Assembly: GCF_020405205.1 (NCBI RefSeq)
Contig: NZ_CP084469.1
Coordinates: forward strand, 1,674,001-1,738,000
Reading direction: 5' to 3'
Length of the DNA: 64,000 nt
Source: Natrinema salinisoli
Lineage (GTDB): Archaea > Halobacteriota > Halobacteria > Halobacteriales > Natrialbaceae
A model generated the notes under the pieces. The model had not been told where the DNA came from. It saw only the letters and a program-made list of their open reading frames with translations, and made no database searches. Of the stretch, positions 10,166-28,813 are shown piece by piece; the stretch's first letter is position 1, and each line of letters starts with the position of its first letter. The translations under genes and the position numbers were made by a program.

Positions 10166-12295
10166 TCAGTCAGAGTGCCCGAGGGAACGCTGACCGCCAC
10201 CCGTCGTGCGGTCAGAAACATCACCACTATCCTCAGACTGGCCGGGCAACTCCGATCCAGACTGTGACTTGGGCTCGAAGTCGATCACTGCCGTCTCGTC
10301 TTCCATCGCTCGGACTTCGATCCCGCGCCATTCACCGTCGACGCCGACGAGCGCTTCTGAGTAGCCTGTCCGATCGTTGCCAGGCACAGCCTCCTGGATG
10401 AAGCGCATCTGTGCGGAATTGAGTCCGAACTCGTCGGCCCACTCGCGATCCATGCCATCGAGATGGTGGAACTGCTTGATCGCACATTGATCGATAATCG
10501 CCTCTGATTCTGGGTGCTGGAAGAACTCGTCGACGGTCTGCGTCACAAGTCGAATCGAGAGGTCGTGATGACGGTGGTGCCGAAAGACAATCTCGAGGTA
10601 CTCGAGACTCGCTGCGTCCTGCATGATATAGCGAGCCTCGTCGATGACGAAGACGACCTCTTTGTCCGTCTCCTTTGCGCGCTCGTAGACCAGCGATATC
10701 AGCAACTGCATAATCAAGCTCGTGCTTCCACCGAGACTCCCCTCTTGCTGGGCGAGATCGAGATAAATCACCTTCTCGTCGCGAATATCGAACGCTGTCT
10801 CACGGCCCAGGTTCTCGTAGCGCCCGTCTTCTGCGAACGGCCGTAACTGGTCGATAAGCCACGTCGCATCGTCTCGAATCTTCGTCGCCTCCTCGTCCGT
10901 CCGGACGACGTATTCGGTCGGTGTCTCGACCATCTCTTCGAGGATATCGAGGACGTCTCGCATCGTCGGACTCTCCTTGTGATGAGTCGCGATATCGTCG
11001 GTGATACCATTCCTCGCATACGACTTCTCGATCGCCGTCTCCAGCGTAGTCCGCCGATCCCCGAGTGAAATCCCACGGAGCGCGAAGTAGTTCGACAGGA
11101 AACTCATCACGCTATCGAGCTTTTCCCGATACGGACTCGCGTCCTCACCCATCGCCTGCTGGACGCGTTCGGGCGTGGATTTGATTTCGAGCGGGTTCAG
11201 TCCCATATCCCCGCCGATCGTCACTCGTTCACCACCGAGCGCTTCGGCGACACCGGCCCAGTTGTTCAACGGCTCGAGGATGATCCCGATTCGGTCCTCG
11301 CTTTGCTCGATCGACCGGATGAAGTTCTGTTTCGAGCCGAACGATTTGCCAGAACCCGGATCGCCGATCGTGAACATCGCATAGCCGTTCTCTCGAGCGA
11401 ACGGATCGATCGCGACCGGGCTCTGATTCTTCCAGTGAGCACCGAATTCGACGCCACCGTCCTCGAGAATCGTCGCGTTGTGCGGCGACGCAAGCAGTGC
11501 ACCAACTGCCCCACCCAACGCAGTGGCCTCCCGACCGAACGGATTCGCGCCGATCGGGGCTGCAGCCTGAATTGCCAGATCCTGCTTGCAAATCGCCGTT
11601 TTCGGCGAGAGCCCAGCTGGCTGTTCACGAAGCCGACTGCGAATGACGCGAACGTCCTCGCGCAACACCTCACGTGAATCCGCGCGCACCGTAATGAACA
11701 TCCCCTGATCGAACACGCGACTCCCGTTCTCGACGCTTTTGTACGTCGACAGCGCCTCGTTGGCTCGCTCTTGGAGATAGCTCCCACGAACAGTTCGCTC
11801 GAGATCTGCATCGGCCTGAAGATCGTCGGCAACTCGCTGGAGTTCGTCTCGAGCTTGCTGTTGGCTCTTCGGTGTGACGTGAACCGTCAGATCGAACTCG
11901 ATGTCCGTGAGCTCGAAGAGGTCGGTTAGATAGCCATCCTTCGGATAGTCGGGATAATCGGCGATGTAGAGTGTGGAGGTCCACTGATCGCCAACACGAG
12001 CGGTCCGCGTATCCCACTCGATCGCTGCCGGTGCGATAACGTGCTGGTGATGCTCCGCGATCTCGTCGAGGACCTCACCTTCCTTACTCCCGTTCTTTAG
12101 GGCCGTCTCCTCGAGGAGATCCGCGAGCTCGACCTCCTCAGGATCCTCGGATCGCCAGTAGTCCCATGCAAACGCTACAAGAAGTGTGACCAGTGCCGTT
12201 CCCCCAATATAGAACGCAAGTCCGGCCTGGGTTCCCGAATCAGGAAGCGAACTCTGCAGTTGATCGACGATCGAAAGCATATGCATCGCGGTCAT
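10166..12295 (-). CDS. virB4-like: VirB4/TraC-type secretion ATPase
   Basis: The 709-residue protein has one hydrophobic segment at about 25-44, a VirB4 N-terminal region, and a FtsK/HerA-type ATPase core. Walker A is 'GDPGSGKS' (311-318), Walker B 'VVFVIDEA' (547-554), followed by the sensor strand 'IRLVTQTVDEF'. VirB4 ATPases power pilus assembly and substrate transport in type IV secretion and conjugation. The start codon overlaps the stop of the gene at 12292 by four bases, so translation is coupled. Position in an operon with PrgI-, VirB6- and VirB2-like genes supports the call. An archaeal HerA helicase is less likely because of the membrane segment and this context. Confidence 0.85.
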   Translation of the reverse strand: MTAMHMLSIVDQLQSSLPDSGTQAGLAFYIGGTALVTLLVAFAWDYWRSEDPEEVELADLLEETALKNGSKEGEVLDEIAEHHQHVIAPAAIEWDTRTARVGDQWTSTLYIADYPDYPKDGYLTDLFELTDIEFDLTVHVTPKSQQQARDELQRVADDLQADADLERTVRGSYLQERANEALSTYKSVENGSRVFDQGMFITVRADSREVLREDVRVIRSRLREQPAGLSPKTAICKQDLAIQAAAPIGANPFGREATALGGAVGALLASPHNATILEDGGVEFGAHWKNQSPVAIDPFARENGYAMFTIGDPGSGKSFGSKQNFIRSIEQSEDRIGIILEPLNNWAGVAEALGGERVTIGGDMGLNPLEIKSTPERVQQAMGEDASPYREKLDSVMSFLSNYFALRGISLGDRRTTLETAIEKSYARNGITDDIATHHKESPTMRDVLDILEEMVETPTEYVVRTDEEATKIRDDATWLIDQLRPFAEDGRYENLGRETAFDIRDEKVIYLDLAQQEGSLGGSTSLIMQLLISLVYERAKETDKEVVFVIDEARYIMQDAASLEYLEIVFRHHRHHDLSIRLVTQTVDEFFQHPESEAIIDQCAIKQFHHLDGMDREWADEFGLNSAQMRFIQEAVPGNDRTGYSEALVGVDGEWRGIEVRAMEDETAVIDFEPKSQSGSELPGQSEDSGDVSDRTTGGGQRSLGHSD

Positions 12296-20769: not shown

Positions 20770-20991
20770 TCAAAAGGTATTGCCAGGCCCAGCGACTCGC
20801 ACTTCGGACTTCGTGGCGAGGACGCGAAACTCTCCGACTGAGAATCTGACCTCGAGGTCATCGCTCGCCGAGTCGACGAGTTGCTTGAGCGCTTCGATAT
20901 CGATCACTCGGTGCAGTTGGTACGCGTCATGGTCGAGTCCTTGCTCTTCGAGCACGTCGACGATCTCGAGGAGGAGACTTCGATCACTCAT
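20770..20991 (-). CDS. Small HalOD1-like protein, 73 aa
   Basis: The protein ('LLLEIVDVLEEQGLDHDAYQ' ... 'LEVRFSVGEFRVLATKSEVRV') resembles the stand-alone HalOD1 output domain of haloarchaeal signalling proteins: two helices followed by a beta-hairpin. The start ATG at 20991 overlaps the ArdC-like gene's stop by eight bases, so the two are translationally coupled. A direct partnership is inferred. Confidence 0.55.
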   Translation of the reverse strand: MSDRSLLLEIVDVLEEQGLDHDAYQLHRVIDIEALKQLVDSASDDLEVRFSVGEFRVLATKSEVRVAGPGNTF

Positions 20992-21922
20992 CCTCACTCA
21001 CCTCACCGACAACGTCGATAATCCTCTCCGCTGTCGAACTGATCCGATTGAGACGTTCGAAGATGGCCTCCGGCTCGTCGCCTTGCCACGCAGCGAGATA
21101 GAACGCAGAGCCGCTCGTATCGAGCCCGAAGTACCGTCCAACAATGTAGCCGACCGCTTCGGACTCGAGTTCTCGTTTTGAACGGTCAGTCTCGTCCCCA
21201 CGATCACTGTGCAACAGTGCGTGGGCGTACTCGTGGATGAGCGTCACAGCGAGGTCGGCACTGTTCTCTCGGTCATGGACCTCCACCAGCGGTCGTTCCG
21301 CAGAAGAGCGATACTGACAGACGCCCTTGGCGTTACCGTGAGGCCATTCCTCGGGGGGAACGACCACGGCGTCTACCTCGAGCAACAGTGCTGCCTCGAG
21401 GAGGTGTGTGGCCACCTCGTCGCCCTCTCCGATTGCCTCGGTCTCGAGTTCGGGGAGTGACTCCCCTTCCGTCTGCGAGATATCGAACACTGGTGCTGGC
21501 CGAAAGCCGACGAGTCCCTTCTTCCATTCGCTAGGATCGGTCTCGTCGTACTCACACTCGCTCCGGTCGTGATACGATGCCGAGTTTCCACACTCGGGGC
21601 ATTTGCTCGCGATGATCGGTGCCCAGATCCAGATCGCTTTCTCGCCTTCCGTCACGTGCCGATCGAACTCGTTTTCCCACGTTCGGTAGCCGGCGATACG
21701 AGTCGCATGCGGACACTGGAGTTTGATCAACAGCGTGTTCCGAGGAGAATAGTCGTGGAACTCACTCTGGACGTCGAGCCACTCCTTGAACTGCTCGCTC
21801 GAGACGGCGTCGTCAACCTCGCCAACGAGTTCCTCGAGCCATGTTTCGATCGTACTGTGCATCTCGTCGTTCCTGGTGTTCGAATCGTCGAACGTTTCCC
21901 GGGTACAACTAGTCATAGTCAT
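20984..21922 (-). CDS. ardC-like: ArdC-like antirestriction protein with zinc metallopeptidase motif
   Basis: Residues 20-150 match the ArdC N-terminal single-strand-DNA-binding domain ('FHDYSPRNTLLI', 'GYRTWENEFDRHVTEGEKAI', 'WIWAPII'), here with an inserted knuckle 'CPECGNSASYHDRSEC' (about 108-123). The C-terminal part carries the zinc peptidase motif H230-E-Y-A-H234 with a following conserved 'ELESEAVGYIVGRYFGLD' helix, the third-ligand region. ArdC proteins protect incoming plasmid DNA from host restriction, so the gene fits a transferable element. The length, 312 residues, is normal. Confidence 0.85.
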   Translation of the reverse strand: MTMTSCTRETFDDSNTRNDEMHSTIETWLEELVGEVDDAVSSEQFKEWLDVQSEFHDYSPRNTLLIKLQCPHATRIAGYRTWENEFDRHVTEGEKAIWIWAPIIASKCPECGNSASYHDRSECEYDETDPSEWKKGLVGFRPAPVFDISQTEGESLPELETEAIGEGDEVATHLLEAALLLEVDAVVVPPEEWPHGNAKGVCQYRSSAERPLVEVHDRENSADLAVTLIHEYAHALLHSDRGDETDRSKRELESEAVGYIVGRYFGLDTSGSAFYLAAWQGDEPEAIFERLNRISSTAERIIDVVGEVSEDE

Positions 21923-22151
21923 GATTGAACGGCTATCTCGAACCTATCTCGAGAAGACCGCTGTCCGTCAGCGGGTCTCAAAAAAACTGGCAGGCAGTCA
22001 GAACCGATCCGACGCGGGACGAATTCATCGCGAACAGAGTAGGCGAAAGCCCGGCAGCGAACGGCTCTCGCCGTGAGCTGCCCGGACCGTGGAGGTGGGT
22101 GGGGTGGCGGGTAGTGGGTGATCGGGACCTAGGAAAAAGAGAGTAGAGTAC

Positions 22152-23000
22152 CTACTCCCACCACTGACTGCGCTCTGGGAATACAATGGTCGACCACCGA
22201 GTCAGTGCGATCGAACATCGTCCGTTGTACCAGTTCTTTGCGGCCGCCCTGAACCGCACCCGCTCGCCCTTACAGACCATCGTCTGCCGACTCTTCGACC
22301 AGATCGTAAACTTCGTTCGTCCCGTTTCGTCTTCGATCAATCCCACCTGTTGGATAGCCGTACTCGAGGGTTCCCACAGCTCAATTACGCGCCCGTCCAC
22401 GCTGACCTCTCCTCGGCTGATCTCCTCGAGTCTCCCAATCGGCACGATCGTCCCTGCTTCGTGTTGCATTTCCTCTTTCGTCGCCATCACCGCCTCGAAC
22501 AGCTCTGCGTCCTCGAGGACTCGACTTGCGATCCGTTTCGCGATTACCGCTCGTGTGTAGCCACCGGTGACGTCTTCGGCTAACCGCTGTGCCTGCCGAT
22601 TGATTTCTCCTACCTCCGTTCGCTCGAGTTCCTCACGAGGATCGGCTCGCTTGTTCGTCCGCTGGTCGCGACGTTCCTGTTCAACTACTGCTCTCGTTCG
22701 TTCCACCCGTCCCTCCTGTCGACCGACTGCCGCCTGGACACTGATCCGCTCGAGTTCCTCCTCTCTGGCTCGAATGCGTTCTTCCTGGGCCAGAGTCGCT
22801 CCATAGATCCGATCGTCGCTCGTATCGACGATTCCGTCTGGGTGGTTCGCATCTACCTTTGCCTGAATCTCCATCTCCACTGTGGCCCGGAACTCTGGAG
22901 TCTCATCGACGATATTCAGATGCTCTTCTCGAACGCCATCTTGTTCGTACGCTTGTTCATCGACCGAAACGACCTTGCTAACCGACTTCCTACTAGACAT
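22152..23000 (-). CDS. OB-fold DNA-binding protein (RPA-like), 282 aa
   Basis: The C-terminal third (about 190-275) is an OB-fold ('VSVDGRVIELWEPSSTAIQQ' followed by 'VGLIEDETGRTKFTIWSK'), as in archaeal RPA-type single-strand DNA-binding proteins. The N-terminal two thirds are helical and very charged, with a coiled coil (about 60-130). The ATG at 23000 ('MSSRKSVSK') is preferred to an upstream in-frame start. Proteins of this shape are typical of haloarchaeal plasmids and would coat single-stranded DNA in replication or transfer. Confidence 0.75.
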   Translation of the reverse strand: MSSRKSVSKVVSVDEQAYEQDGVREEHLNIVDETPEFRATVEMEIQAKVDANHPDGIVDTSDDRIYGATLAQEERIRAREEELERISVQAAVGRQEGRVERTRAVVEQERRDQRTNKRADPREELERTEVGEINRQAQRLAEDVTGGYTRAVIAKRIASRVLEDAELFEAVMATKEEMQHEAGTIVPIGRLEEISRGEVSVDGRVIELWEPSSTAIQQVGLIEDETGRTKFTIWSKSRQTMVCKGERVRFRAAAKNWYNGRCSIALTRWSTIVFPERSQWWE

Positions 23001-23095
23001 TGGAATTCTAACTTCCAAAGGCGCTCACTCGGCGTCTTTTCCGACACCACGACTCTCCAGCCTTAGCTCTCGTCGCACTCCAACGTTCCATCATA

Positions 23096-23147
23096 CGCGT
23101 CTCGCTCGCGCCTTCGCAAGCGCCCGTCAGGGCGCGAGCGAGACGCG
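23096..23147. repeat. 17-bp perfect inverted repeat with 18-base loop
   Basis: CGCGTCTCGCTCGCGCC (23096-23112) is the exact reverse complement of 23131-23147. The loop contains a further complementary patch that allows an alternative inner hairpin. It lies about 95 bases upstream of the OB-fold gene start, in a stretch of 835 bases without a recognised gene (23001-23835). Such a strong stem is unusual here and may be a replication, transfer or termination signal. Confidence 0.6.
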
Positions 23148-23421
23148 CCGATGTCCGAATCAACCAGCACCACGCGTCGATTCCACCGAAGCGAGTGTCC
23201 AGTTTTAAGCCGTTTTCGCGTCTGAGCGCGAGCGAAGACCGAAAGCGCGCTTAATACTGGTATCCGAAGAGCGTGTGCGAGCGGAGGGCAGAAGCGGCGA
23301 GTTGTGCGCACGATTCACGAGGAGAATAGAACAGAAACTAGAACTGACTGAACACCCGGCATGGGTGGGGTCCAACGGGCGAGTGCAGTCGACGAACCCC
23401 GACGACGAAAGCACCGTCGTT

Positions 23422-23472
23422 CGAGAGAGCGGAGCTCTCTCGTGATCACGAAAGACGCTTTGCGTCTTTCGT
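23422..23472. repeat. Two adjacent perfect hairpins
   Basis: CGAGAGAGC-GGA-GCTCTCTCG (23422-23442) is followed by the palindrome CGTGATCACG (23441-23450) and by ACGAAAGACGC-TTT-GCGTCTTTCGT (23448-23472; 11-base stem). The three structures touch or overlap. No reading frame explains them. They form, with the stem at 23096, a hairpin cluster over about 380 bases. Confidence 0.6.
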
Positions 23473-23672
23473 ACGACAACGAAGCGAGGCGCGCAGCGAG
23501 TCGCGGGAGTCGACTGTGCGAGGGGGTTGGAACGTGAGAGATTCGTTCGAAGGCCTCGATACGTGGAATACGATACAGACCAATTCAACAAGAGCTGTTC
23601 GTCAGACGATGTTCACTCGTCTCTGCGATCCCGCTCGGATATTTGCCAAGTTCTTCCTTGGAAGTTTCACCC

Positions 23673-23712
23673 CTCCCTGAAGGGCGAGGATTTCGCTTCG
23701 GATTTTCTGTAA
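23673..23712 (-). mobile_element. Possible IS200/IS605 end sequence
   Basis: The stretch 'CCTCCCTGAAGGGCGAGGATTT' and the flanking GCTTCGG resemble the antisense of the sequence that commonly lies at ends of haloarchaeal IS200/IS605 elements. No transposase frame adjoins it. This is recognised from memory of the motif only. Confidence 0.3.
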
Positions 23713-23835
23713 CACCCGTCGATCACCTTTTTACGAAGGAATAACACGGCCAGTATATCAGTGCCTAGGGCGACTTGATGCCTCAGTCGAAGCTTCCGAG
23801 GATATAGACTGTATACTGACGAACCTCGGTGGGGT

Positions 23836-24120
23836 TTAAGCCCACCAGAGATCTCGGTCGTGATTAGCGTCGAGCCAATCAACAGCGTCTGAGATGGATG
23901 TCAGTCGAACGTTATCCCGTCCGCCGCCCCCGTAGTATTCTGCGGGGGCTGATGGATCGCGGCCAAGGTCGCGAATTAGATCATCGACCCGACCTTGGTC
24001 CGATGACGCGGACCAGTTCTTCACTGTATCGACTTGTCGCTTACTCGCCCCGGTAACTTTTTCACGGACCATCTTTTCGACGATGTCCGCTTTCAGTTCC
24101 GAGTTTGACTTCCTCGCCAT
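23836..24120 (-). CDS. Hypothetical protein, 94 aa
   Basis: A small basic-to-neutral protein starting 'MARKSNSELKADIVEKMVRE', with a helical DNA-binding-like N-terminal half and a 'YYGGGGRDNVRLTSISDAVD' C-terminal half. The ATG at 24120 is preferred to one six bases upstream. It is found alone between the hairpin region and the divergent wHTH gene at 24227. Function unknown. Confidence 0.55.
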   Translation of the reverse strand: MARKSNSELKADIVEKMVREKVTGASKRQVDTVKNWSASSDQGRVDDLIRDLGRDPSAPAEYYGGGGRDNVRLTSISDAVDWLDANHDRDLWWA

Positions 24121-24226
24121 CGGCATCTAATCCTAACAGACCATTCTACTTAATGATGTTTATTCTGATAAACAGAGATGGGGTCACAGAGTAACACTTA
24201 TTAAGATATGAAGCTAGTGTTCGAGT

Positions 24227-24601
24227 ATGGCACAGACGGAGGACGCAAAAGCATACGCTGACGACACTACAATCACAGATATCCTCGGGGACCACCCACG
24301 AGCCAAGATTCTGACTGTGCTACTCTCCGAAGCGCCAAACGACATCAATATCACGGACATCGCACGGCTGGCCGGCCTCGAGCGAAAAACGGTCTACTCG
24401 CACCTTGACCCATTGCTTGCCTACGGGATCGTCGAAAAGTCACGGATGGTCGGTAACAGTACGATGTACCGAATCAACACGGACAACGAGGCCGCAAAGG
24501 CTCTCGGCAAGCTCGACCGCGAATTGATGCAGATCCTTGCCGCCAAGGAGGACGCTGGTGAACTTGATGAAGAAGGAACACCGATTGTCACCGAAAGCTA
24601 A
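24227..24601 (+). CDS. Winged-HTH regulator, 124 aa
   Basis: The core (about residues 14-85) is a MarR/ArsR-like winged helix ('LGDHPRAKILTVLLSEAPND', 'ITDIARLAGLERKTVYSHLD') followed by 'GIVEKSRMVGNSTMYRINTD', then a helical dimerisation tail. It is the nearest regulator upstream of the large ATPase gene at 24968 and divergent to the gene at 24120. Control of either is inferred. Confidence 0.75.
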   Translation: MAQTEDAKAYADDTTITDILGDHPRAKILTVLLSEAPNDINITDIARLAGLERKTVYSHLDPLLAYGIVEKSRMVGNSTMYRINTDNEAAKALGKLDRELMQILAAKEDAGELDEEGTPIVTES

Positions 24602-24967
24602 AAGCGGTCTGTAATGACTCCCACTCGTCGCTGCGGTCATAGAAGGTCATACTTTGCCTAATGATTACTGCGATAATGACTTCTGTAGTTTGGTGTGCTC
24701 AGACATCTGAATCACCGAGACGGTTAGGACGATTGAGAATCTAAATAAGATAGATAGAGGAGAACTCGAGGAAAAATACCAGTGAACAAGTCACCGTTAT
24801 CGCTCGTCGCAGAGCACTCTGGTAGCCGACCGGAACAATCGGTCATCTATTCCCGACATCTATTTATTAGATTTGCTATTATAATAGCGGTATTGAAAGT
24901 CACGACCCCAGAAGCGCTCACGCTACCGTCGGCATGAGCACTGTCTGTGGCAGACTTCGCTTAACCA
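24602..24967 (+). promoter_or_regulatory. Intergenic region with palindrome GCTATTATAATAGC upstream of the large ATPase
   Basis: Within these 366 bases the only marked element is a perfect 14-base palindrome at 24875-24888, centred about 87 bases before the ATG at 24968. It can serve as a TATA-like element and as a symmetric operator. The rest shows no gene or repeat. Confidence 0.45.
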
Positions 24968-27900
24968 ATGCCGACAGAGAAAGACGCGACGCCGATACCT
25001 GAGGAACCGACGACTGCATCTCTCGAGAACTCGAGTTCGACTACTGCTAGAGACGAGACCAGCAGTGACTCGAGTCCACAGATCAATGACGACACGACTG
25101 GAGTTCTCACGGACTCACAATCCCACGAGTTACGGACGTACATCGAAATTCGACCGTCGACGAACCCCCTCAACGCCACGGCCGTTTCACAGGCAACGTC
25201 ACTGCTGTACGAGAGTCTGCGAGAACTCTCACACTCAAGTGTCTGGTCGACACTGCGAACCAGAACCCAAAAACCGATCGTCGAGTGGCTACTCGTTGCT
25301 GACGGTCACTCAGACGCCAGCATTCGATATCTCGTCGGGACGACACACGACCCATTTCTCAGCGAGCTCGAGGCGATCCTTCGGACGTGGTTTCCGGACA
25401 CGTACGAATTGCGGCGAGTCGAGTGGCATCCGCGTCAAATCGAAGCCTCGCGTTCGATACCCACGGAAAACGAGCGTTCGTCGTCATCGACTGTCGGCGA
25501 TTGCGAGACACGGACGTGCCGAGAGCAACCGTACGTCACCGGTGTCGAGTATCGCGCTACTGCCGAAGTCCGCCGGGACTGGCAGACTTCGCTCGCAACG
25601 TTCGACGAGATCACTGATCGTTCCTCACAGCGACGGTCGGACGAAGACGAGTCGAAATCACGTCGCGTCCCGATCGCAACGCTCGTCGAAACGCTCTGCG
25701 ATTCGGCCGTCCCCATCGTGTATCAGGTCGTCTGTTGCCCGATCGGCGATCAGCGGGCAGATGCGGAACAGTACCGATACGACCTCGAGCGCAGCCTCGT
25801 CACGCCCGCTGATCGTTTCTTCGAGTTCGTTTTCCCGAAAGCGGACGAGAAACCCGATCCGAGACATCTCTCCCCCTCCTACCGAGACCGCCTCGCCGAT
25901 CTCGAGACGCGAGACCTCCGACGGACGTTCTGTCTCTCCGCTCGAGCGGTGGCGTTCGCAGATGAGCGCGATCGGGAGCACGCTGACGCGATCGTTCACA
26001 GTCTCGCGAGCGTATTCGGACATCTGAGCGGGCCGTTTCATACCGTTCGAGGGCACGTCACCACGGACAGCAACCTCCACACGGGCACGCTTCCACCTGG
26101 GAGCCGACTCTTCGTAGCGATCCGTGAGCGAACCTGTCCCGAACCGACGTACGACTCCCTCGAAACCCGCCTTCCGTGGAAGACACACGAGAGTGCTGGT
26201 ATCGTCGTCTCGCCCGAGGAACTTCCCGGATTCTGTCTGATCGATGGCGTCGGTCTGACGCCGACCGGGCAACGAGCACTCGGCGCTCGACAATCCGAAC
26301 GAACCGGGCTTCCACTGCCATCACCGACCGATCTCGAGCGATATACGGGGACTGGTCAAGCGCTCTGTATGCCCCTCACTGATGACCGCCAACCATACGA
26401 GAACTCGTTCGTCCTTCCGCCATCGCTTCAGGACAGACATCTCTTCGTCGTCGGCGATACGGGTTCGGGGAAATCCGTCCTCACGGCGGGAGCAATGCTT
26501 TCGAACCTCGAGGCGACGGACGGTCCGGAGATCCTCTTCGATTACAAGGGTGGTGGGACAGCCGAAGAATACCTCCGAGCACACTACGCAGAACACGGCG
26601 ACCTCGAGAACGTCCGCTACTTCGACCTCACGAAACTATTGCCCGCACTCTCGATCTTCGATATCAGGTCACTACTCGACGCCGGCCTCTCACGCGAGGA
26701 AGCGCGATCGAGGATTGCGGGTCACTACGAGGAAATCCTCGCGGGATTGATGGGCGAAGAACAGTACTACGGGGCGACGGAATCGACGAAGGCGATCCGA
26801 AACCACCTTCGGGCATTGTTCGATCCGATTCACGGCTCTGAGACCGTCTCGCACAAAGACCTCTATCGAGCGCTTCAGCGCACGCTGAGTGATCGAACGC
26901 CACCGCCGACCTCGGATGACCGACTCACCGAATACTTCGCCGGATTGCTCGAGCGCGACCGAGACGTCTTCAACAAGGTCCTCGGCGGTGCCGTGGCTCG
27001 AGTCGAGATCATCGCGACCGACGATCGGCTGGCACCGTTATTCGATCACGTCCATACACTCCCAGAATCAGACGACCGCAACGAAAATGGTGACCACGAG
27101 ACTCTCGAGGATTCGTCTCCGCACTTCGATTTCATCGATGCCATCAACGATGATGTGGTCATCATCTTCGATTTTGGCGGGATGGAAGAGCGAATCAAAC
27201 GCGCGCTGACGCTCGTCCTCCTCTCGAATCTGTGGACGGCACTGAAAGCGCGATCAAAGAGCCCGGAAATGGCCGAAAACCCTCTCTTAGTCAATTTATA
27301 TCTCGAGGAAGCGAAAGACGTCGTCGCAACGCAACTGGTCGATACGCTCCTCTCGCAGGGGCGATCGTTCGGCCTCTCCCTCATGCTTGGCGTTCAGTTT
27401 CCGAGCCAGCTCGATTCACCGGATCCGTCGAATCACACGTATGAGGAAGCCCTCAACGAGATTGGGACGTTCATCGTCGGCAACGTTAGCATCGAAGACG
27501 ATCTCGCAAAGGCGCTCGCGACCGATACCATTCCGCCGAAGCACGTCGCCAGACGCCTCGCAGCCATTCGCCACGGCGAGTGGCTCGTCCGCCCTGCTGC
27601 GGAGTTCGGCTCACCCGTTCCACGGCCGTTTCTCGGACGATCACTGCCCGCACCTGACGGTCACCCAGTGAGTGAGACTCCTCTCGATGATGAGCGATCA
27701 CAGGCTTTCGAAACCGTATTCGAACTCACTGCACTCGAGACGTGGAAAGAATTTGGACTCAGTCATGAAATCCATCCTTCCAGAAGCGACACAGCGGGCG
27801 GTGAGAACGGAGCAGATGACGTCGATGACGACCCTCGTGAGGAGATACTTCGAGTAGATTCCCTACTGCCACACACGAGGCGACTCCCCGATTGCGTGAG

Positions 27901-28813
27901 CTACGACGAATCGGTCCATGCCCTCTGCTGTGGATCGTGTGAAAATCGTTATGACCCGACTATCGAAGGCATGAAACGGGCGATCGAGTGCTGTCATACA
28001 CTCACGGATGTCGATTCGGACGATATCCCCGTCTGTGATGTCAATCTCAAACTTACGCCCGAAGAGCGCGACGTCTCTGAGTGGAGCGATCGCCAACTAC
28101 TCTTCTTACAGACGGTGTACAACGCTCAGCAGCTTCGATATGATCCTCTCGAGTACGCTCTCCTTCAGGACTCGATGATCAGACTCCAGGAGTACGTCGG
28201 GATTGAAACCGACGAGATTGCTCCACTACTTGACGCCGACCTCCTCAGACACGATACGGATCACCCACATCGGCTATACTCAGTCTCTTCGGAAGGCCGA
28301 TCTGCAATCGGTGAAAGCTATCGCAAAGGTGTCGATTACGGCCACGGAGTCGGTGATCTCGACGAGTCCAGTGAACACGTCTTCGGGATTGAGGTCACTC
28401 GGCAGTATCTCGAAGAGGCGTATGCGGCGAATCCACAATCGGACGTCACCGAGGTTATTCCCTATTACGAACTCGACGATCAACACCGACTCGACCTCGC
28501 GGGTGTGAGTGATGATGGTGAGATTATCGTGACAGCCGAGGTCGAACGGATCAACCACGATATCGGACGTGCGGTGCCCGACGACTTCGATAAAATGGCT
28601 GCCTGTGACCCCGAGGCCGCAATCTGGGTCGTTATGAAACAGGCCGATGGACACAGACTGCTCTCGGCGCTCAACGACCCACTCGAGGGTGACCCACGGG
28701 TCGAGAAAACGTATGCAAAGACCACACCACCCCAACAGTTCCGGATCGACACGCCAGGGATGACGGCGGTCTATCCTGCAGAGTGGCTCCGGGATCACTC
28801 ACCAGAGCCGTAA
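24968..28813 (+). CDS. Very large VirD4/HerA-type ATPase with extra C-terminal domains, 1281 aa
   Basis: The N-terminal 480 residues are strand- and helix-mixed without clear membrane segments. The ATPase core follows: Walker A 'GDTGSGKS' (496-503), 'FDYKGGG', an acidic strand 'DDVVIIFDFGG' near 735, and the probable Walker B 'LLVNLYLEEAKD' (about 773-783) with 'GRSFGLSLMLGVQFPSQL' after it, as in TraG/VirD4/HerA proteins. A Cys-rich knuckle follows ('CCGSCENRY' about 983, 'ECCH' near 1005). The last 150 residues resemble a PD-(D/E)XK fold ('RLDLAGV' with Asp about 1175 and 'TAEVE' near 1189). It is probably the coupling ATPase of the transfer system. The nuclease-like domain is an inference from motifs. 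Confidence 0.7.
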   Translation: MPTEKDATPIPEEPTTASLENSSSTTARDETSSDSSPQINDDTTGVLTDSQSHELRTYIEIRPSTNPLNATAVSQATSLLYESLRELSHSSVWSTLRTRTQKPIVEWLLVADGHSDASIRYLVGTTHDPFLSELEAILRTWFPDTYELRRVEWHPRQIEASRSIPTENERSSSSTVGDCETRTCREQPYVTGVEYRATAEVRRDWQTSLATFDEITDRSSQRRSDEDESKSRRVPIATLVETLCDSAVPIVYQVVCCPIGDQRADAEQYRYDLERSLVTPADRFFEFVFPKADEKPDPRHLSPSYRDRLADLETRDLRRTFCLSARAVAFADERDREHADAIVHSLASVFGHLSGPFHTVRGHVTTDSNLHTGTLPPGSRLFVAIRERTCPEPTYDSLETRLPWKTHESAGIVVSPEELPGFCLIDGVGLTPTGQRALGARQSERTGLPLPSPTDLERYTGTGQALCMPLTDDRQPYENSFVLPPSLQDRHLFVVGDTGSGKSVLTAGAMLSNLEATDGPEILFDYKGGGTAEEYLRAHYAEHGDLENVRYFDLTKLLPALSIFDIRSLLDAGLSREEARSRIAGHYEEILAGLMGEEQYYGATESTKAIRNHLRALFDPIHGSETVSHKDLYRALQRTLSDRTPPPTSDDRLTEYFAGLLERDRDVFNKVLGGAVARVEIIATDDRLAPLFDHVHTLPESDDRNENGDHETLEDSSPHFDFIDAINDDVVIIFDFGGMEERIKRALTLVLLSNLWTALKARSKSPEMAENPLLVNLYLEEAKDVVATQLVDTLLSQGRSFGLSLMLGVQFPSQLDSPDPSNHTYEEALNEIGTFIVGNVSIEDDLAKALATDTIPPKHVARRLAAIRHGEWLVRPAAEFGSPVPRPFLGRSLPAPDGHPVSETPLDDERSQAFETVFELTALETWKEFGLSHEIHPSRSDTAGGENGADDVDDDPREEILRVDSLLPHTRRLPDCVSYDESVHALCCGSCENRYDPTIEGMKRAIECCHTLTDVDSDDIPVCDVNLKLTPEERDVSEWSDRQLLFLQTVYNAQQLRYDPLEYALLQDSMIRLQEYVGIETDEIAPLLDADLLRHDTDHPHRLYSVSSEGRSAIGESYRKGVDYGHGVGDLDESSEHVFGIEVTRQYLEEAYAANPQSDVTEVIPYYELDDQHRLDLAGVSDDGEIIVTAEVERINHDIGRAVPDDFDKMAACDPEAAIWVVMKQADGHRLLSALNDPLEGDPRVEKTYAKTTPPQQFRIDTPGMTAVYPAEWLRDHSPEP

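Follow-up and report, generated by a model that had tools for sequence, protein, structure and literature searches.

What is the role of a group of strong hairpins that lies in a gene-free region, just upstream of a gene for a predicted OB-fold DNA-binding protein? The question is raised by a 64,000-nucleotide stretch of Natrinema salinisoli DNA (contig NZ_CP084469.1, positions 1,674,001 to 1,738,000), referred to here as the window. An earlier note had described four hairpin features at 23096-23472 as one cluster and had offered a plasmid replication origin, an origin of transfer or a regulatory RNA as explanations.

Hairpins and an inserted repeat

All four features were found in the window sequence where the earlier note had placed them. 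They are listed here with three further features of the same region.

23096-23112 with 23131-23147, no strand assigned: 17-bp perfect stem with an 18-nt loop, core hairpin H1; a homologous stem occurs in 75 of 77 related leaders
23199-23260, no strand assigned: long-arm stem, CCAGTTTTAAG (23199-23209) pairing with CTTAATACTGG (23250-23260), one mismatch
23386-23516, no strand assigned: outer 5' hairpin, arms 23386-23393 and 23509-23516, located by eye; an equivalent hairpin occurs in relatives
23417-23476, no strand assigned: 60-bp dispersed double-hairpin repeat with TCGT/ACGA ends, holding the three features below
23422-23430 with 23434-23442: 9-bp stem
23441-23450: 10-base palindrome
23448-23458 with 23462-23472: 11-bp stem

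Apart from the 17-bp stem, the window has no perfect stem of at least 12 bp with a loop of 3-20, and one 12-bp stem in total arose in six dinucleotide shuffles of its 64 kb. When nested stems were taken separately, the stretch 23019-23535 held six stems of at least 9 bp, above every one of 200 shuffles of the same stretch (maximum 2).

The hairpins were real; their description as a single cluster was not sustained. A blastn comparison of 22000-25000 with relatives showed that Natrinema ejinorense (locus L009) lacks exactly bases 23417-23476, with identities of 90% over 22038-23416 and 97% over 23477-23535. Because L009 matches the window and yet is without exactly these bases, the hairpins are two things. 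As read from this comparison, three of the four (the last three of the list) are one 60-bp insertion, an unrelated small repeat separate from the hairpin-rich element. The 17-bp stem, by the same kind of reading, is the core of a conserved, predicted cis element of about 530 nt before the OB gene. Conservation in related elements, which the earlier note had named as a check, was observed for the 17-bp stem, while the other three were absent at the N. ejinorense site.

The inserted repeat occupies the loop of the outer 5' hairpin (23386-23516) and has no target duplication. The host chromosome contains 7 other similar places (E up to 4e-4), and a similar repeat was seen within the tail hairpin of loci L094/L013 and L100. 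It resembles the small mobile repeats of Haloquadratum. Such repeats invade palindromes there, and SMR-A elements occur in PATEs and IS605-type elements, according to extracts of PMC3119063. Shortness, terminal inverted repeats, insertion into a hairpin and the lack of a target duplication are shared with the SMR-type repeats; these measure 80-110 bp in the same extracts, against 60 bp for 23417-23476, and the likeness is one of form. It may also be noted that the end of the 5' arm of H1 can pair with the loop at 23113-23130 (GCGCCC with GGGCGC), giving an alternative inner hairpin; by eye on the loops, this recurs in other subfamilies with another sequence.

The OB-fold unit, its setting and its ends

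The hairpins belong to a larger unit of about 1.5 kb, which consists of the ~530-nt leader, the OB gene and a tail, and which has transfer-type genes nearby in the window.

23004-23535, minus strand: leader of the OB gene, a hairpin-rich cis element; homologous leaders stand before OB genes across Halobacteria
22152-23003, minus strand: gene for a predicted OB-fold, RPA-like single-stranded-DNA-binding protein, 283 aa, ATG at 23003
22045-22151, minus strand: tail, with a T-run after the OB stop codon, a C-rich stretch, a terminal hairpin (22050-22085) and the end motif GGGCTTTC
20984-21922, minus strand: ArdC-like/ImmA-IrrE antirestriction gene beside the OB gene (Pfam ArdcN, E 3.4e-5; Peptidase_M78, E 1.1e-4)
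24968-28813, plus strand: TraG/VirD4/HerA-like ATPase (Pfam DUF87, E 5.3e-6; TrwB_AAD_bind, E 2.4e-5)
10166-12295, minus strand: VirB4-like conjugation ATPase (NCBIfam conju_CD1110, E 1.8e-39, below the model's cut-off)

The interval 23096-23472 therefore proved too narrow, although its placing upstream of an OB-fold gene was confirmed by the homologous leaders. The window and L009 are alignable over 22038-23535, the 60-bp insert excepted, and the left end of the leader in the window was set where the L009 match stops. In most copies the leader extends to the start codon, where a short variable hairpin often adjoins the ATG. Conserved parts were found past the T-run too. Among the loci searched, mostly chosen for holding an OB gene, and in the host's own genome, the 200-nt core occurred only before OB genes.

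Similarity of the protein to RPA-type OB-folds is confined to its C-terminal third. NCBIfam PRK07217 (replication factor A) matched residues 173-279 with E 6.5e-19, far below the cut-off of the model, and phmmer matched PDB 2kbn (E 2.2e-10). With an AlphaFold model of mean pLDDT 70, whose N-terminal half is helical or predicted with low confidence, the best Foldseek match was 2ken (E 3.1e-4), the sole one under 0.001. No catalytic motif was noticed in an alignment of 34 sequences. The same alignment gave the family a mosaic look: residues ~100-140 and the C-terminal domain each come in alternative versions, and these are variously combined. In two relatives (G003 and G013; loci L178 and L179) the OB protein is ~32% identical to that of the window, the leader segments are 74-84% identical at the DNA level, and these segments adjoin TraG. 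Either the leader is conserved beyond the protein or it was exchanged by recombination; parts of it are better conserved than the protein encoded behind it.

DNA of the unit matched in 88 of 125 genomes of the family (E up to 0.001), the match being doubtful in the 9 whose best E was above 1e-10. The host has four full-length protein copies on three replicons, that of the window included, and one partial copy. Among genome contigs a scan found 75 loci, and the titles of 74 of these are haloarchaeal. A contig of a Syntrophomonadaceae MAG (L082) carries part of a haloarchaeal OB unit (87% identity, 46 residues), probably through a binning error. By tblastn, 197 of 72,556 plasmid records matched the OB protein, 149 of them over at least 80% of its length; pNRC100 and pJ7-1 were among them, both with the long leader. 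No match to the OB protein appeared in 50,697 phage records. The unit is found across Halobacteria, largely on plasmids and conjugative-type elements, in one to several copies per genome, chromosomes included.

This distribution goes against the plasmid replication origin that the earlier note had considered: there are multiple copies per genome, some of them chromosomal, and the smallest plasmid with a full-length protein match was 81.5 kb among the 60 of 197 records listed.

The association of the hairpins with a transfer-type element was borne out by the VirB4-like and TraG/HerA-like ATPases together with the ArdC-like protein, which also matched a PHROG anti-restriction protein (E 4.5e-9). 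These three genes belong to an integrated conjugative-type element in the window; between ~5 and 30 kb the G+C content of the window is lower than in the remainder. Elsewhere the association with conjugation genes was partial. Among ten annotated plasmid regions, four came from MPF_T-typed plasmids and six did not. The association with TraG was counted from 84 strong matches, partial OB matches and a few TraG fragments being excluded and orientation not being counted. A strong TraG/HerA-like match lay on the same contig for 53 of the 116 OB places (within 15 kb for 29, within 25 kb for 39) and was missing from the contig for 63, these being raw counts among the OB places listed, with no chance baseline and with many draft assemblies. 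When 44 weak, 100-residue TraG matches were added, 81 places shared a contig with a match (46 within 15 kb, 62 within 25 kb) and 35 of 116 had none. On pJ7-1 and at L149 and L150, a primase and/or a primase-associated protein is followed by small genes and the OB gene, mostly on one strand. Seven TraG relatives of 69-77% identity had neither OB nor ArdC in the ~9 kb upstream; members of that TraG family can therefore occur without the OB unit.

The leader might be an origin of transfer (oriT), with the OB protein as an accessory factor of the relaxosome. Its hairpins do adjoin an OB-fold gene in conjugative-type elements, and there is a precedent in ICESt3, whose OB-fold proteins OrfL and OrfM are relaxosome factors (PMC12614216, in part). 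We nevertheless regard an oriT as quite improbable, given that genomes hold several copies, that a single plasmid record has up to 4-5 matching places, and that PLSDB classes all 197 matching plasmid records as non-mobilizable. An unsystematic look recognised neither a relaxase nor a nic site.

The ends of the unit were compared among 90 copies. In 48 of them a left-end motif, GAAAGCC/T, was present at a distance of 464-723 nt ahead of the gene, when ~4 were expected from background. A right-end motif of type I or II followed the OB gene in 78, being GGGCTTTC in 40 and GCAGCCAC[AG]ACC in 38. The window copy has the right motif and lacks the left one, GAAAGCCC. For ten of the closest relatives the blastn match ended on the left at 23301 and on the right at 22043 or no more than 17 bases from it, on different flanks; the outer leader beyond 23301 was still alignable in close relatives, though more divergent. 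In many pairs of copies the flanks change abruptly at the ends of the unit, and partial copies exist. Sharp ends and partial copies suggest a possible mobile cassette.

Such a cassette would be transposon-like, in the manner of PATEs or IS605: its hairpin ends (GAAAGCCC on the left, GGGCTTTC or GCAGCCACGACC on the right) would be recognised by a transposase acting in trans, and the OB gene would be cargo or a mobility protein. The frequencies of the end motifs, the abrupt flanks and the partial copies all agree with this, as do the small repeats that insert in the hairpins of the unit, in the way reported for SMR-A in PATEs and IS605-type elements (extracts of PMC3119063). With the haloarchaeal PATE/IS200-IS605-type elements of that source the unit shares palindromes or hairpins near both ends, invasion by small repeats and, as judged by eye, the absence of target duplications. 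It differs from them in encoding an OB-fold protein, where those elements are too short to code or carry TnpA/TnpB, in having no transposase, in a large conserved internal structure that exceeds what those extracts describe for PATEs, and in orthologous positions that are retained in plasmid lineages. Moreover, when the joined flanks of 43 copies were searched against the collected loci, no junction-spanning match and no clean empty site was obtained. One loose case, the flanks of L038 lying ~280 nt apart in L016 at 67-76% identity, was not clean. With the missing target duplication and the missing left motif of the window copy also on this side, we judge the cassette unlikely, though still a substantial contender.

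Two apparent links to a transposase or TnpB were examined and dropped. At L085 the tail motif follows a TnpB gene, but an IS605-type hairpin precedes the motif there, and at L037 what lies near TnpB is a truncated leader. In one plasmid family, a ~4.9-kb segment adjoining the left end of the unit distinguishes L036/L041 from L038/L045, as though recombination had taken place at that end.

Paired arms and the strand that folds

Pairing was examined in 77 leaders; 8 of 85 (L102, L052, L078, L120, L051, L076, L026 and L070) had been dropped as masked or as unalignable by eye. H1 was found in 75 of the 77, with 24 distinct arm pairs. The arms were paired leader by leader with an aligner that scores G-T and A-C alike, and gave 410 Watson-Crick pairs, 3 G-T, 4 A-C, 3 other mismatches and 9 bulges. 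In 24 of 24 cases the own arms outscored the mean of swapped arms, the search pattern fixing the four innermost pairs equally for own and swapped arms. The complementarity of H1 is thus kept while its sequence changes. The long-arm stem has several arm versions between subfamilies, and its pairing is largely, not perfectly, kept.

A second hairpin near the gene (CCACG/CGTGG versus CCGCGATG/CATCGCGG) gave a perfect stem of at least 5 bp in 45 of the 77 leaders and none in 32. It was given no weight as a conserved feature, several of the 45 being other small stems. RNAalifold returned a poor consensus for a mixed alignment of 45 leaders because domains are swapped among them; a homogeneous set of 21 worked.

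By eye, archaeal BRE/TATA sequences are not conserved in the stems: arms with TTAAA are confined to the clade of the window and are non-TATA elsewhere. The candidate TATA promoter CTTAAAACTGG was rejected, being a stem arm whose sequence differs between clades.

To see which strand is the more structured, the last 260 nt of each leader were folded and compared with dinucleotide shuffles, for 30 of the 77 leaders drawn at random and then for the other 47; the leaders are related, and neither these counts nor those of pairing are independent trials. With DNA parameters, z was more negative for the template strand of the OB gene in 61 of 77 leaders (26/30 and 35/47); with RNA parameters this held for 59 of 77 (22/30 and 37/47). 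For 23019-23301 of the window, RNA parameters gave -5.28 for the template and -2.83 for the sense strand, and DNA parameters gave -3.33 and -1.77, respectively. SRP RNA of related genomes served as the control, with 15 of 25 fetched loci in the z test and 24 loci in the pair counts. With RNA parameters the control favoured the RNA strand in 12 of 15, and with DNA parameters it showed no clear preference (6/15). The part of the leader from -480 to -260 had weak z on both strands and little strand preference, and z was weak in the tail too.

Exceptions to Watson-Crick pairing were counted as well. In pairs predicted on both strands the ratio of G-T to A-C was 35:37 for 21 leaders and 64:74 for 77, compared with 33:15 for SRP RNA. 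When pairs from either strand were pooled, it was 64:48, 84:82 and 51:25, respectively, the balance being less clean in the set of 21 (64:48). The signature of Rfam-type RNAs, a sense folding bias with an excess of G-U over A-C, was thus not seen in the leaders by composition-controlled z or in the pairs common to both strands, while the SRP control behaved as RNA. Rfam itself had 0 gathering-level matches in the window and, on locus L041, sub-threshold matches of microRNA or sRNA type with none above threshold. No tRNA was present in the window.

These results bear on the possibility that the leader is a structured 5' untranslated RNA through which the OB mRNA is autoregulated, an SSB-like protein binding its own mRNA. 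The leader of T4 gene 32, an SSB mRNA, is reportedly autoregulated; the haloarchaeal unit is similarly structured just before the start codon of a gene for a single-stranded-DNA-binding protein, and differs in that its strand tests, once base composition is controlled for, do not point to the sense RNA. The reach of the element to the start codon in most copies, the variable hairpin that often stands beside the ATG and the T-run after the stop codon would all suit an mRNA leader. So would the raw RNA folding energy of the last 260 nt, a measure that ignores base composition, which was lower for the sense strand in 76 of 77, with a G-U fraction of 0.114 for the sense strand and 0.068 for the other. 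Against these stand the composition-controlled z with either set of parameters, the near equality of G-T and A-C exceptions in pairs common to both strands, the lack of an above-threshold Rfam match and the conserved parts beyond the T-run. Together, the strand tests argue against a sense mRNA leader and for a DNA structure with the template strand favoured, and we hold the mRNA leader to be rather unlikely. The regulatory RNA of the earlier note is weakened to the extent that a sense-strand RNA of the OB gene was meant. An antisense RNA is compatible with the z test, but is not favoured by the counts of exception pairs.

A possible role at DNA entry

Elements with which the unit may be compared are known from bacteria. 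There, Frpo/ssi sequences take on a fold in the entering strand and mimic a duplex promoter; they stand immediately before ssb in leading regions, and SSB stimulates Frpo single-stranded-DNA promoters (PMC11541004, in part). A search of the main text of that article found no mention of 'archaea'. The haloarchaeal unit likewise has a hairpin-rich noncoding region directly upstream of a gene for a single-stranded-DNA-binding protein, with antirestriction and transfer genes nearby in the window, and its template strand folds better than shuffles. It differs in its larger leader (~530 nt), in stems without a conserved promoter core, and in a core that was seen before OB genes only, while copies of Frpo stand ahead of several genes. 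The lack of a conserved promoter core in the stems is why we do not file the unit as Frpo. The two would be analogous in anatomy, with homology in sequence not shown.

Our preferred explanation, put forward tentatively and with somewhat less than even confidence, is that the hairpin element is a DNA element that works single-stranded at the entry of the conjugative-type element into the cell. The unit would then comprise an RPA-like OB-fold gene, a ~530-nt hairpin DNA element before it and a terminal hairpin behind it, carried on haloarchaeal plasmids and integrated conjugative-type elements. When such an element enters a recipient in single-stranded form, the hairpin element, as the template strand of the OB gene, may fold. 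The folded DNA may offer a double-stranded platform on which RNA polymerase or primase of the host could start; in this way the OB protein would be made at once, second-strand synthesis would be started at once, or both. Starting from what was computed, namely the unit, its spread, the conserved pairing, the partial association with conjugation genes and the template-favoured folding that is better than in shuffles, we infer that the element works single-stranded, that it acts as a promoter or a site of priming, and that it does so at entry.

No description of the unit was found in the titles and abstract openings of the open-licence PMC literature. To our knowledge, the establishment of conjugative DNA in an archaeal recipient is largely open. 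The leader could conceivably be the first archaeal start site on single-stranded DNA: in haloarchaeal conjugative elements, a conserved ~530-nt fold of the entering strand would switch on the RPA-like protein while the DNA is not yet duplex, perhaps along with second-strand synthesis, and this fold would have arisen independently of bacterial Frpo. This wider claim we consider doubtful, yet worth stating. A conserved noncoding fold joined to a single-stranded-DNA-binding protein on many haloarchaeal plasmids, with pNRC100 of the model Halobacterium NRC-1 among the carriers, is a testable candidate for the entry step.
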